From: Flavobacteriales bacterium | Lineage (GTDB): Bacteria > Bacteroidota > Bacteroidia > Flavobacteriales_D > Crocinitomicaceae | Direction of reading: 5' to 3' | NCBI GenBank assembly: GCA_947463385.1 | Contig: CANHSL010000004.1 | Location: forward strand, 1-64,000 | Length of the DNA: 64,000 bases | Shown: piece by piece, positions 38,067 through 41,086 of the stretch | Layout of the letters: each line of letters opens with the position of its first letter | Numbering within the stretch: the first letter of the stretch is position 1 | Position numbers and translations under genes: made by a program | The notes under the pieces: generated by a model | Told to the model about the DNA's origin: nothing | Seen by the model: the letters and a program-made list of their open reading frames with translations, nothing else | The model's database searches: none

Positions 38067-38465
38067 CTAGGAAAGACTGCAACTTGGACAAATCCCGGAG
38101 ATTGTAAGGAATAACTCTTTTATTTGGTATGTGTCTGGCAGCTTAACATGAATCAATTGTTCTTCCAAACATTCGATTTTCTTGCATTTAACGCAGCTGA
38201 AATGTAAATGGTCATGTGCATGTGTGTGGGATTCGTCACAACTTGCGCAATGGGCATAATTTATTGTCCCATCTATATTTACAATTTTATGTATTTTATT
38301 TTCTGTTACAAGTCGGTCCAGTACGCGATATACGGTTACTCTATCGCAGGTGCCTTTTACCCGTTCAAAGAGCTCCGGTTGACTTAAGGCAAACGATGAA
38401 TTAGCTATTTCGTTCAAGACAGCTTGTTTTGCTTTTGTATTTCTTGGATTGGACATTTTTTCCAT
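38067..38465 (-). CDS. Fur-family metalloregulator (Zur-like)
   Basis: A 132-residue metal-responsive repressor from ATG 38465 (an alternative ATG is at 38456). The winged-helix DNA-binding part holds LSQPELFERVKGTCDRVTVY followed by RVLDRLV. The C-terminal dimerisation and metal domain is rich in ligands: HCASCDESHTHAHDHLHFSC, then CVKCKKIECLEE and GICPSCS, including two pairs of CxxC-type cysteines. The His-rich segment and the receptor next door fit a zinc sensor (Zur), but iron (Fur) is not excluded. It is divergent from the TonB receptor at 38535; the shared 70-base gap holds two palindromes. Confidence 0.85.
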   Translation of the reverse strand: MEKMSNPRNTKAKQAVLNEIANSSFALSQPELFERVKGTCDRVTVYRVLDRLVTENKIHKIVNIDGTINYAHCASCDESHTHAHDHLHFSCVKCKKIECLEEQLIHVKLPDTYQIKELFLTISGICPSCSLS

Positions 38466-38468
38466 TAG

Positions 38469-38483
38469 TGCAACAAAATTGCA
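38469..38483. promoter_or_regulatory. Palindromic operator 1 for the Fur-family regulator
   Basis: TGCAA-CAAAA-TTGCA, an inverted repeat with 5-base arms. It lies 3 bases upstream of the regulator start codon and over the -33 zone of the receptor promoter. Confidence 0.6.
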
Positions 38484-38492
38484 ATTATTATT

Positions 38493-38500
38493 TATATTTG
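38493..38500 (+). promoter_or_regulatory. -7 element of the TonB receptor promoter
   Basis: TATATTTG fits the Bacteroidota -7 consensus exactly; no clear -33 motif lies 20 bases upstream, which is common for regulated promoters. Transcription would start near 38507, inside operator 2. Confidence 0.6.
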
Positions 38501-38506
38501 CAAAAC

Positions 38507-38519
38507 GCAACAATGTTGC
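38507..38519. promoter_or_regulatory. Palindromic operator 2 for the Fur-family regulator
   Basis: GCAACA-A-TGTTGC is a perfect 6-1-6 palindrome, sharing the GCAAC/GTTGC core with operator 1. It overlaps the expected start of transcription of the receptor gene, the classical position for repression. Confidence 0.7.
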
Positions 38520-38534
38520 AATAAATGTTTTAAC

Positions 38535-40781
38535 ATGAAATATGCCTTAGTAGTTACTGTTCTGATTTTGGCTTTTAACTCGTTATTGGCTCAGCAGTTA
38601 ACCGTGCAGGTTTTTGACTCGATTCGTAATGTTCCACTTTCTAATGCAACGGTTTACTGCGTTGAATTCGATCAGACCGTGCTTACCAATACGGATGGAA
38701 AAAGTGTATTTACAGTTAACACCGGCAGTTGCCTTAATATAAAAGTAGTTACGCTAGGGTATCGAAGTGCTTTTTTCACGCTGTGTGAGGGGCAAAGCCT
38801 GGTGAAAATTTACCTTTTGCCAGTTCATTTGGATATGCATGAAGTTACCGTTTCTTCTGGTGCGCTAATTCAATCGAATAAAAACCCCTTTCATATTGAA
38901 TCTCAGAAAATGTCGTCCCTTGGTGTGATTTCAAATTTAACACTAGGCGAAGCATTGGCGAAAATACCTGGGGTCTATAATGCGGCTTTAGGAAATGGTA
39001 TTTCAAAACCTGTGATTCGCGGTATGCAAGGTATGCGTGTTGTTACATTGTTGAATGGGTTAAGACTGGAGGGACAGCAATGGGGTGGTGATCACGGAAT
39101 TGGCATTACAAGTCTTGGTGTTTCTGCCGTTGAAGTTATAAAAGGTCCCGCCAGTTTATTATATGGTGCGGATGCCTTGGGTGGAGTTGTCTATTTGGTG
39201 GATGCCCCATTTGCGCCATCCAATGCGCGTTCAGTCGAATTTCAATCAGAGGGTTTTTCCAATACCTTAGGTGGCAGAGCTCAGTTGATTTACAAGGAAT
39301 CCTATCGTAAGTTCCGATGGTTTGTGGCTTCTACCTACTCTAATCATGCTGATTTTCAATTGCCTTCAGGTAAGTTTGCCAAGAATTCACGGTTTAATGA
39401 TTTTGGTGCTAAAGTGAATATGTCCTACACCGGAAAACGGAGTTTATATTCCTTGCGTTACACCGCCAGTCATTCCGTAGTAGGAATCCCAGGACATACA
39501 CATGATTCCTTAGCTACGCCCTTGACGTTTCAGGTCGATGAGCGTGCTAGAACATATGAGTTGCCGGCACAGTTTTTTCAGAATCACCTAATTCAAGCTA
39601 CCGCCAATTTTTACAGGGATAAATCAGATGTTTTATTCATGTACGGGGCGACACTAAATCGATTAATTGAATTTGACGAGAAAGTTACGATCCCTTCCTT
39701 GAGTATGTTCTTATTCAATCACTTGGCGCAATTGAGGTGGCAAATAAAGTGGAATCCAAGAACTAAATTAACAGCTGGGCTGCAAGCGATGACCCAAGAT
39801 AATACCAATGCGTTAAATGCTTCTGACACCTTAATTCCTAATGCGCAATCTGTTGATTTGGGCGGATATGTAAGTGTCAATCACGAGCGAAAAAAATGGA
39901 ACGTTCAAGCAGGGATTCGGTATGACCGAAGAACGATATTTGGGATTGATTTACCACACCAAAACAACCTCAGTTTTAATGGCTTAAATGGAAGTATAGG
40001 GGTGGTGCGCAGTTCGGATAAGTTTGTTTGGCGGACGTCATTATCCACTGGATTTCGGGCGCCACACTTAACGGAGTTGTTCTCAAATGGGTACCATCAC
40101 GGTGCGCTGAGGTATGAGGTAGGTGATGCTGCGTTGGTTCCCGAAAAGGCTAGCCAATTAGATGTTACCATAGAATGGAATCAAGCGCATGGCGCCTTGG
40201 TGTTAAACCCGTTCGTGAGTTACATACGCGATTATATTTATTTGGAGCCCATGGGGATGCTGTTTGATGGAATTCCTGGATACCGTTACGTTCAAAATAA
40301 TGAAGTGCTTTTTTCTGGCGTAGATTTGTCTTATCATGTACATCCGCATTTTGCGCATGGATTGCATTGGGAGGTTTCCATATCCTACCTTAATGTCAGT
40401 TCCCTTGGCGATAGTTCGGTTTCTATGATTCCTCAGCCTCGAATGCAAAACGTGCTTAGGTATGAATTTGAATTAAAGAACTTTATTCGATTGAAAGAGG
40501 TGAATGTACAATCCACTTTAATGGGACCTCAAAATAATGTGGCCTACCTCGAAACCACGTCGAAGGCATATCATGTATTGGATTTTTCATTAGTGTTTGC
40601 CTTTGGTAAAACCGATCAATTTACCATAAAAGGGGGAGGGAGAAATGTGCTAAATGCCACGTATATTGATCATTTATCCCGCTTAAAAAACATTCAAATG
40701 CCCTTTCCTGGAAGAAATTTCTTCTTGGGAGTTGGGTATAATTTCAATAGTAATTTTAAAAACAAACCATATGAAAACTAA
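38535..40781 (+). CDS. TonB-dependent receptor, probable metal (zinc) uptake
   Basis: An outer-membrane transporter of 748 residues: signal peptide MKYALVVTVLILAFNSLLAQ, a carboxypeptidase-regulatory-like domain (about 21-95), and a plug with GEALAKIPGVYN, KPVIRGMQGMRVVTLLNGLR and VEVIKGPASLLYGADALGG. The barrel follows and ends with the FLGVGYNFNSNF strand near its end. Extracellular loops contain His-rich stretches such as HSVVGIPGHTHD, a WGGDHG segment in the plug, and NGYHHGALRY, as in ZnuD-type zinc receptors. The adjacent Fur-family gene and operators support metal control. It overlaps the small lipoprotein gene by 11 bases. Confidence 0.88.
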   Translation: MKYALVVTVLILAFNSLLAQQLTVQVFDSIRNVPLSNATVYCVEFDQTVLTNTDGKSVFTVNTGSCLNIKVVTLGYRSAFFTLCEGQSLVKIYLLPVHLDMHEVTVSSGALIQSNKNPFHIESQKMSSLGVISNLTLGEALAKIPGVYNAALGNGISKPVIRGMQGMRVVTLLNGLRLEGQQWGGDHGIGITSLGVSAVEVIKGPASLLYGADALGGVVYLVDAPFAPSNARSVEFQSEGFSNTLGGRAQLIYKESYRKFRWFVASTYSNHADFQLPSGKFAKNSRFNDFGAKVNMSYTGKRSLYSLRYTASHSVVGIPGHTHDSLATPLTFQVDERARTYELPAQFFQNHLIQATANFYRDKSDVLFMYGATLNRLIEFDEKVTIPSLSMFLFNHLAQLRWQIKWNPRTKLTAGLQAMTQDNTNALNASDTLIPNAQSVDLGGYVSVNHERKKWNVQAGIRYDRRTIFGIDLPHQNNLSFNGLNGSIGVVRSSDKFVWRTSLSTGFRAPHLTELFSNGYHHGALRYEVGDAALVPEKASQLDVTIEWNQAHGALVLNPFVSYIRDYIYLEPMGMLFDGIPGYRYVQNNEVLFSGVDLSYHVHPHFAHGLHWEVSISYLNVSSLGDSSVSMIPQPRMQNVLRYEFELKNFIRLKEVNVQSTLMGPQNNVAYLETTSKAYHVLDFSLVFAFGKTDQFTIKGGGRNVLNATYIDHLSRLKNIQMPFPGRNFFLGVGYNFNSNFKNKPYEN

Positions 40782-40980
40782 CATGTTATTTATTGCTTTA
40801 CTCGGGTTAATGGCGGTGTCATTCTCGGCGTGTAAAAAGAACAAATGTGAAGAATGCCATTACGACAAGGCTGGAGCCGAGATTGAGCTTGGTGAAAAAT
40901 GTGGGGATGAAATGGAGAGCTTAGAAGCGAATGGCTATACAGATACAACGGGTACGTATATTGTCCATTGCGGGCATTGA
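40771..40980 (+). CDS. Small Cys/His-rich lipoprotein
   Basis: A 69-residue protein with signal MKTNMLFIALLGLMAVSFSAC, lipid-modified Cys21, and a mature part of only about 48 residues. The latter contains CEECHYD, an acidic centre EIELGEKCGDEME and a terminal VHCGH, four further Cys plus His at likely ligand spacing. It starts inside the receptor gene, so it is translated with it, and is followed by a strong terminator. Similar mini-lipoproteins sit beside receptors in Bacteroidota. A metal-handing role is an inference from composition and location. Confidence 0.7.
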   Translation: MKTNMLFIALLGLMAVSFSACKKNKCEECHYDKAGAEIELGEKCGDEMESLEANGYTDTTGTYIVHCGH

Positions 40981-41002: not shown

Positions 41003-41028
41003 AAATCCGGTTTATCCGGATTTTTTTT
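41003..41028 (+). terminator. Terminator of the receptor-lipoprotein unit
   Basis: AAATCCGG (41003-41010) pairs with CCGGATTT (41016-41023) around a 5-base loop, then a T-run to 41028. Confidence 0.9.
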
Positions 41029-41086
41029 GTTAATAAAGTTGGGGGTGATTCTTTGTGTGAAGGCTCATTCACTTAAAGATAATCCG

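Follow-up and report, generated by a model that had tools for sequence, protein, structure and literature searches.

How zinc gets from an outer-membrane receptor to an inner-membrane importer without loss or binding to the wrong protein is not well understood, above all in the Bacteroidota that lack ZnuA. The closest described receptor, ZnuD of Neisseria, binds a buried zinc through D99, H100, E340 and H499 and has further, peripheral sites, H241 and H243 among them (PMC4557270), and the documented targets of the zinc repressor Zur include TonB receptors, COG0523 proteins, FolE and carbonic anhydrases (PMC6103462; PMC2770081). We describe here a three-gene locus at positions 38067-40980 of a 64,000-nt stretch (the window) of contig CANHSL010000004.1 from a Flavobacteriales bacterium, in which a minus-strand gene of the Fur family stands divergent from plus-strand genes for a TonB receptor and a very small lipoprotein. 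The locus is real and conserved, and it is probably specific for zinc. Its regulator and its receptor each add a new member to a known kind, and the mini-lipoprotein belongs to an unnamed family that varies the theme of receptor plus lipoprotein; we regard it as a credible candidate for a new component of zinc hand-over in bacteria without the usual periplasmic zinc carrier. The locus is laid out as follows.

38067-38465, minus strand: Zur-like regulator of the Fur family, 132 amino acids, start codon ATG at 38465
38535-40781, plus strand: ZnuD-like TonB-dependent receptor, 748 amino acids, with Pfam Plug and TonB_dep_Rec domains and ZnuD as its best match in the PDB
40771-40980, plus strand: lipoprotein of 69 amino acids, the first 11 nt of its gene shared with the end of the receptor gene; sequence MKTNMLFIALLGLMAVSFSA followed by CKKNKCEECHYDKAGAEIELGEKCGDEMESLEANGYTDTTGTYIVHCGH
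41003-41030, plus strand: modest intrinsic terminator, a hairpin at 41003-41023 with 8 pairs (4 G-C) and then a T run

An initial annotation, made from the sequence alone, had placed these three genes here with the regulator divergent, and had read them as an import system for zinc or another metal, with a lipoprotein of no described function that captures or hands over the metal at the surface or in the periplasm. All three genes were found, as was each of the quoted motifs GIPGHTHD, NGYHHGAL, CEECHYD and VHCGH. Zinc import has become strongly supported, by the homology to ZnuD with its ligands and by Zur-type operators that are common to zinc-starvation genes; the side of the membrane on which the lipoprotein works and its binding of metal are the parts of that interpretation that the sequences bear out less firmly. 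Some details needed correction. The mature lipoprotein has the proposed 48 residues when counted after its lipid-bearing Cys and 49 when that Cys is included, its "nesting" in the receptor end is a real overlap that spans only the 11 nt from its ATG at 40771 to the end of the receptor TAA at 40781, and the terminator, which had been called strong, is of a kind found nearly as often in shuffled sequence (five such sites versus 3.4 expected).

The receptor is nearest to ZnuD in both sequence and structure. Its AlphaFold2 (AF2) model, with a mean predicted local distance difference test score (pLDDT) of 86.6, has 22 barrel strands, and ZnuD was the top match in the PDB by single sequence (E 1.2e-13), by profile (E 9.3e-41; the second-best protein reached 2e-20) and by structural comparison of the model (fold E 3.4e-38). 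The score of 102.8 bits against the NCBIfam ZnuD model NF038289, which has a cut-off of 950, makes the receptor ZnuD-like but places it outside the curated family. Known zinc ligands of ZnuD, cited here in the numbering of the original paper (numbers in the PDB chains are higher by 14), have counterparts in the receptor, and a further group of His residues lies elsewhere in the barrel:

39090-39095, plus strand: D186-H187, equal to ZnuD D99/H100 by alignment
39495-39503, plus strand: H321 and H323 in loop 3 (GIPGHTHD), equal to ZnuD peripheral H241/H243 by alignment and model
40095-40100, plus strand: H521-H522 in loop 7 (NGYHHGAL), with H521 equal to ZnuD H499, by alignment and model
40335-40367, plus strand: His cluster H601, H603, H605, H608 and H611 around the predicted periplasmic turn T8 (603-609), by conservation and model

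Of 59 full-length receptors that occur with the lipoprotein, every one has D186, H187, H321 and H521, and 57 have H323. Three of the four high-affinity positions of ZnuD are aligned and invariant; E340 falls outside the alignments, and E379 and E382 are conserved candidates. The two His-rich loops singled out in the initial annotation are, by alignment, zinc sites of ZnuD. With ZnuD as the clear best match, a haem or siderophore receptor was rejected. It is extremely improbable that the locus as a whole serves haem, with the CxxCH motif of the lipoprotein binding haem c in a mini-cytochrome and the receptor importing haem. That motif is invariant, and the best NCBIfam model for the receptor is a haem/haemoglobin subfamily (below its cut-off), but ZnuD is ahead of the haem receptors by ~20 orders of magnitude in E, the CxxCH lies within a predicted strand, no Pfam cytochrome c match was obtained (a cytochrome model gave weak matches to only two of 75 members), and the common regulon is of the zinc type. 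We also count against haem that ZnuD was at one time wrongly annotated as a receptor for haem (PMC4557270). Homology, regulon and predicted fold together led us to reject the mini-cytochrome.

The turn T8 joins strand 16 of the receptor model to strand 17, and is predicted to be periplasmic because of the strand count, if strand 1 runs outward like that of other TonB receptors. Its five His residues are present in 59 of 59 receptors with the lipoprotein, and H552 of turn T7 is present in 58; the aligned stretch of ZnuD, IYFKPTPRYRIG, has no His.

The lipoprotein carries the following sites:

40831-40833, plus strand: lipobox Cys21 (FSAC lipobox), the predicted lipid attachment, invariant in 76 members
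40846-40860, plus strand: C26-x-x-C29-H30 motif, invariant, in the predicted strand 26-33
40900-40902, plus strand: C44 (GEKCGD), invariant
40966-40977, plus strand: C-terminal H66-C67 ... H69, with H66 and C67 invariant and the final His in 73 of 76

Conservation in these 76 distinct sequences, which takes in the lipid Cys, C26, C29, H30, G41, C44, E52, G55, H66 and C67 as invariant positions, led us to reject a chance open reading frame, and the sequences define a real family that is as yet unnamed. No family in Pfam or NCBIfam reached its cut-off (the window member gave 16.7 of the 50 bits needed for the PG1828 family, in the signal region only), which agrees with the earlier remark that no function has been described, as far as the libraries searched go. 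The mature protein has a net charge of ~-9. AF2 predicts a confident beta-beta-alpha-beta core over residues 26-67, with pLDDT ~90 over 30-67, and a fold search of the PDB with this model returned nothing significant.

Such a fold might also suit a subunit that carries no zinc, one that stabilises the receptor, gates its plug or acts as a brake, in which the Cys residues form two disulfides and the His residues are structural. The order of the Cys residues fits two disulfides across the predicted fold and the PDB holds no close fold; a small lipoprotein of phage T5 reportedly acts on the TonB receptor FhuA, so that there would be a precedent for a small lipoprotein on a receptor. We think such a subunit unlikely, however, since a structural role would hardly account for the invariant H30 and H66 and the near-invariant His at the C-terminus, and since in genome G087 (below) the gene of an analogous small lipoprotein is immediately preceded by a Zur box, which links such proteins to zinc itself.

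The lipoprotein and the receptor are closely linked. The lipoprotein is encoded in 78 of 150 genomes, including that of the window (E ~1e-8 or better), and in all 68 distinct cases in which the distance could be measured it lies downstream of a receptor gene with the same orientation (30 genes overlap that of the receptor, 37 are within 100 bp and one is at 107 bp); no stand-alone copy was seen. Cases at contig ends are consistent with this arrangement, as G051 and G127 have receptor fragments upstream of the lipoprotein, and in G116 receptor and lipoprotein are at the ends of different contigs. Absence of the lipoprotein beside orthologous receptors had been named in advance as grounds for giving up the proposal. 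A close receptor (at least ~34% identity) is carried by 87 genomes, of which 76 have the lipoprotein and so go against such a refutation, eight have complete loci without it, two have loci cut by contig ends and one (G087) has a different small CxCH lipoprotein. A profile search of 396 Bacteroidota genomes found two true members only, both in the genus of the window, and three weak partial matches, suggesting that, within the limits of this sampling, the family does not occur outside the order. Copy number varies as well: G074 has three tandem mini-lipoproteins behind one receptor (L065:5001-5789), and in G016 (L066) the receptor-lipoprotein pair is duplicated.

On which side of the outer membrane the lipoprotein acts bears directly on what it might do. 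The sequence C-x-K-(D/E)2 after the lipid Cys is the optimal surface-export signal of C. canimorsus (PMC5080379). The signal may not hold in the same form in the present family of bacteria; the window lipoprotein, whose mature part begins with CKKNKC, does not have it, most relatives carry Lys or Asn in place of the acidic pair, and the strict form is missing from 65 of 76 members. Of the surface and periplasmic placements that the initial annotation had left side by side, the periplasmic one is favoured by the sequences, because the export signal is mostly absent, the His cluster of the receptor is predicted to face the periplasm and there is no ZnuA. The genome of the window, which has two ZIP genes, lacks ZnuA (PF01297), as do 75 of the 78 genomes that bear the lipoprotein; this absence and the invariant five-His turn that ZnuD lacks are new here. 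Our preferred reading, which we hold to be about as likely as not, is that the lipoprotein is a periplasm-facing zinc acceptor or hand-over protein. It is unlikely, if worth serious attention, that it is instead a surface lid or collector that captures zinc and loads the receptor from outside as BtuG does on BtuB. Lipoprotein-assisted TonB transport at the surface is established in Bacteroides (PMC10404256), some members have the strict export signal and the mature protein is strongly acidic, as might suit a collector, but the start of the window member and of most relatives does not fit, 49 residues are very few for a lid, and the family-specific His cluster of the receptor lies on the periplasmic face.

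If the lipoprotein is a periplasmic acceptor, the locus might work as follows. When zinc is plentiful, the Zur-like repressor would occupy both palindromes ahead of the receptor gene and keep the receptor-lipoprotein operon off. Under zinc starvation, the receptor would bind zinc through the His residues of loops 3 and 7 and the Asp-His site of its plug, carry it across the outer membrane with energy supplied through TonB and release it at the invariant His cluster of the periplasmic turn. From this His-lined exit zinc might pass to the Cys/His lipoprotein and on to a ZIP importer, with a membrane-tethered zinc acceptor beside the receptor filling the gap left by ZnuA.

The control of the locus by zinc is suggested by its regulator and by the sequences between the two divergent genes.

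38468-38484, no strand assigned: candidate Zur operator 1, GTGCAACAAAATTGCAA, one mismatch to TGCAACNNNGTTGCA; the motif is kept at orthologous loci
38493-38500, plus strand: candidate Bacteroidota -7 element TATATTTG, by direct reading of the sequence
38505-38521, no strand assigned: candidate Zur operator 2, ACGCAACAATGTTGCAA, one mismatch to the TGCAACNNNGTTGCA core; its position is kept in relatives, for example L031-L034 and L094-L100

The palindromes GTGCAACAAAATTGCAA and ACGCAACAATGTTGCAA occupy the gap between regulator and receptor, and their position between 38466 and 38534 makes ATG 38465 the probable start of the regulator, rather than TTG 38513. With only three further matches in the genome of the window, the chance of two TGCAACNNNGTTGCA-type sites within 70 bp is ~3e-9, a flattering figure since the motif was chosen after the site had been seen. 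Independent support comes from conservation, as most orthologous gaps with a divergent Fur gene hold WTGCAACNNNGTTGCAW or a near match. The element TATATTTG is a candidate -7 element on the consensus TAnnTTTG; no good -33 element for it was apparent from direct reading of the sequence.

The regulator has the features of a Fur-family fold with two structural zinc pairs and the Cys and His of a Zur regulatory site, and its Pfam FUR score of 22.8 bits falls just below the 23.1 cut-off. The CxxC pairs C91/C94 and C126/C129 are present in 47 of 48 regulator sequences (the remaining row is truncated), H59, C73, C76, H86, H88 and C99 are near-invariant, and C73 and H59, conserved in 46 and 45 of the 48, align with the regulatory-site Cys and His of E. 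coli Zur in the PDB entry 4mtd. Their counterparts there are C88 and H77, and by our own reading C99 stands at the place of a Glu ligand in E. coli Zur. A regulator of the iron or peroxide type (Fur or PerR), with the locus importing iron, manganese or another metal, is very unlikely. General similarity gives such a regulator some support, since the weak best matches in NCBIfam are Fur and PerR models far below their cut-offs and the PDB search places Fur (9ire, E 0.00093) level with E. coli Zur (4mtd, E 0.0012), so that by sequence alone the protein is equally near to Fur and Zur structures. It is nevertheless called Zur-like because of the genes that neighbour its operator in relatives, the alignment of C73 with the zinc-sensing Cys of Zur and of H59 with its regulatory His, and the conserved CxxC pairs. 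The ZnuD ligands of the receptor also speak against another metal, and iron Fur is disfavoured by the operator neighbours.

These neighbours define what appears to be a Zur regulon in the relatives. Exact copies of TGCAACNNNGTTGCA, a motif that was inferred here and that we did not find in the literature searched, number ~55 in the 150 genomes versus ~6 for a reversed control, a nearly tenfold excess. Neighbouring genes were examined in twenty stretches that surround exact sites elsewhere than at the receptor; one representative of each kind was named by Pfam and the others by sequence likeness. Next to exact operators lie genes for CobW/COG0523 GTPases (L178, L185, L189, L197), FolE (L180, L184, L188, L196), MerC (L182, L183, L184, L188, L196) and an alpha carbonic anhydrase (L186), together with further Fur genes (L179, L196), TonB receptors (L190, L191) and DUF4625 lipoproteins (L191, L193, L194). 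In G087 (L122:5151-5440) an exact operator lies between a ZnuD-like receptor and another small lipoprotein with a CDCH motif, and as it stands directly ahead of the lipoprotein gene it would link such a mini-lipoprotein to Zur independently of the receptor. Homology of this CxCH lipoprotein to the present family was not established, as hhalign aligned essentially the signal peptide and the start of the C/H region (84% probability).

Several observations weigh against the hand-over proposal or narrow it. The most serious is that the four non-lipid Cys residues could form two disulfides, which would leave only His residues and acids for a metal. Strict export signals do occur in 11 of 76 lipoproteins, and the anticorrelation between ZnuA and the lipoprotein (Fisher p 0.004) ignores relatedness. 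Receptors that occur without the lipoprotein mostly retain the His cluster (H603 and H605 in 15 of 15), so the cluster marks the receptor family and not the partnership. Eight complete receptor loci of the same genus (L114-L121) have neither the lipoprotein nor an adjacent Fur gene nor a TGCAAC operator, and the lipoprotein is therefore not essential for the receptor. As for regulation, the genome of the window has only three other sites within one mismatch of TGCAACNNNGTTGCA, none of them by a recognisable zinc gene and all in or near unrelated genes. Part of the genus also keeps receptor and lipoprotein without an adjacent Fur gene or TGCAAC operator (L040-L042, L050, L052, L054, L067-L069, L071-L073, L078-L083), and since both are missing, regulation must have changed there.

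Gene content around the operators and receptors varies in further ways. In L048, L055, L056, L063 and L064 the Fur gene lies downstream on the same strand, giving the order receptor-lipoprotein-regulator, and four of the eight loci without the lipoprotein have a conserved protein of 465-467 amino acids next to the receptor instead; these eight loci provide a natural control set for the role of the lipoprotein. Operons with exact operators also encode, beside CobW, FolE or Fur genes, a conserved protein of 63-68 amino acids (MIPxTxxEWTNCIVNDC...YGEQHLxNIIxWL), which matched no Pfam family in the one copy examined and is a candidate new cytosolic zinc-starvation protein. Its copies are:

L178:2018-2209, minus strand: 63-68 amino acid protein
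L179:2120-2314, minus strand: 63-68 amino acid protein
L180:1717-1923, plus strand: 63-68 amino acid protein
L197:2068-2259, minus strand: 63-68 amino acid protein

DUF4625-type lipoproteins with Zur-type operators are found at L191:2198-3012, L193:2275-3247 and L194:1416-2397, the L191 copy following a ZnuD-like receptor, and DUF4625 may belong to zinc acquisition.

A wider proposal can be drawn from these observations, which we put forward tentatively and think somewhat improbable as a whole. It holds that the ZnuD-like receptors of Flavobacteriales would have their cognate zinc acceptor in the family of ~49-residue, periplasm-facing lipoproteins, which would take zinc from the His-lined exit turn, replace ZnuA and feed ZIP importers, and that Zur in Bacteroidota might control several unrelated outer-membrane lipoproteins (this family, the CxCH mini-lipoproteins and DUF4625), each paired with a zinc receptor. 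If the lipoprotein binds zinc, it would offer a simple and testable answer to how zinc is passed on, and would be among the smallest metallochaperone candidates. It might also help to recognise zinc-receptor operons in this phylum, where annotation can easily turn a receptor for zinc into one for haem or siderophores.

Compared with the described systems, the receptor resembles ZnuD (PDB 4rdr, 4rdt, 4rvw) in its full-length fold, its sequence and the equivalents of D99/H100/H499 and H241/H243, with 18% identity in the structural alignment, and differs from it in its extra five-His periplasmic turn, in a CarboxypepD-like N-terminal domain (a weak Pfam match) and in having a lipoprotein as operon partner. 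The BtuB-BtuG system of Bacteroides thetaiotaomicron likewise serves a scarce nutrient with a TonB receptor and a partner lipoprotein of the outer membrane (PMC10404256), but BtuG is a surface-exposed lid, whereas the lipoprotein here has 49 residues, belongs to a family that mostly does not carry the strict surface signal and would serve a metal ion. As in known Zur regulons (PMC6103462), a Fur-family repressor and palindromic operators occur with TonB receptors, COG0523/CobW, FolE and carbonic anhydrase, although the regulon in the genome of the window seems restricted to the locus itself. The periplasmic zinc carriers ZnuA and ZinT show no homology to the lipoprotein, which is lipid-anchored and tiny, yet the role proposed for it, the holding of zinc in the periplasm, is the same as theirs.

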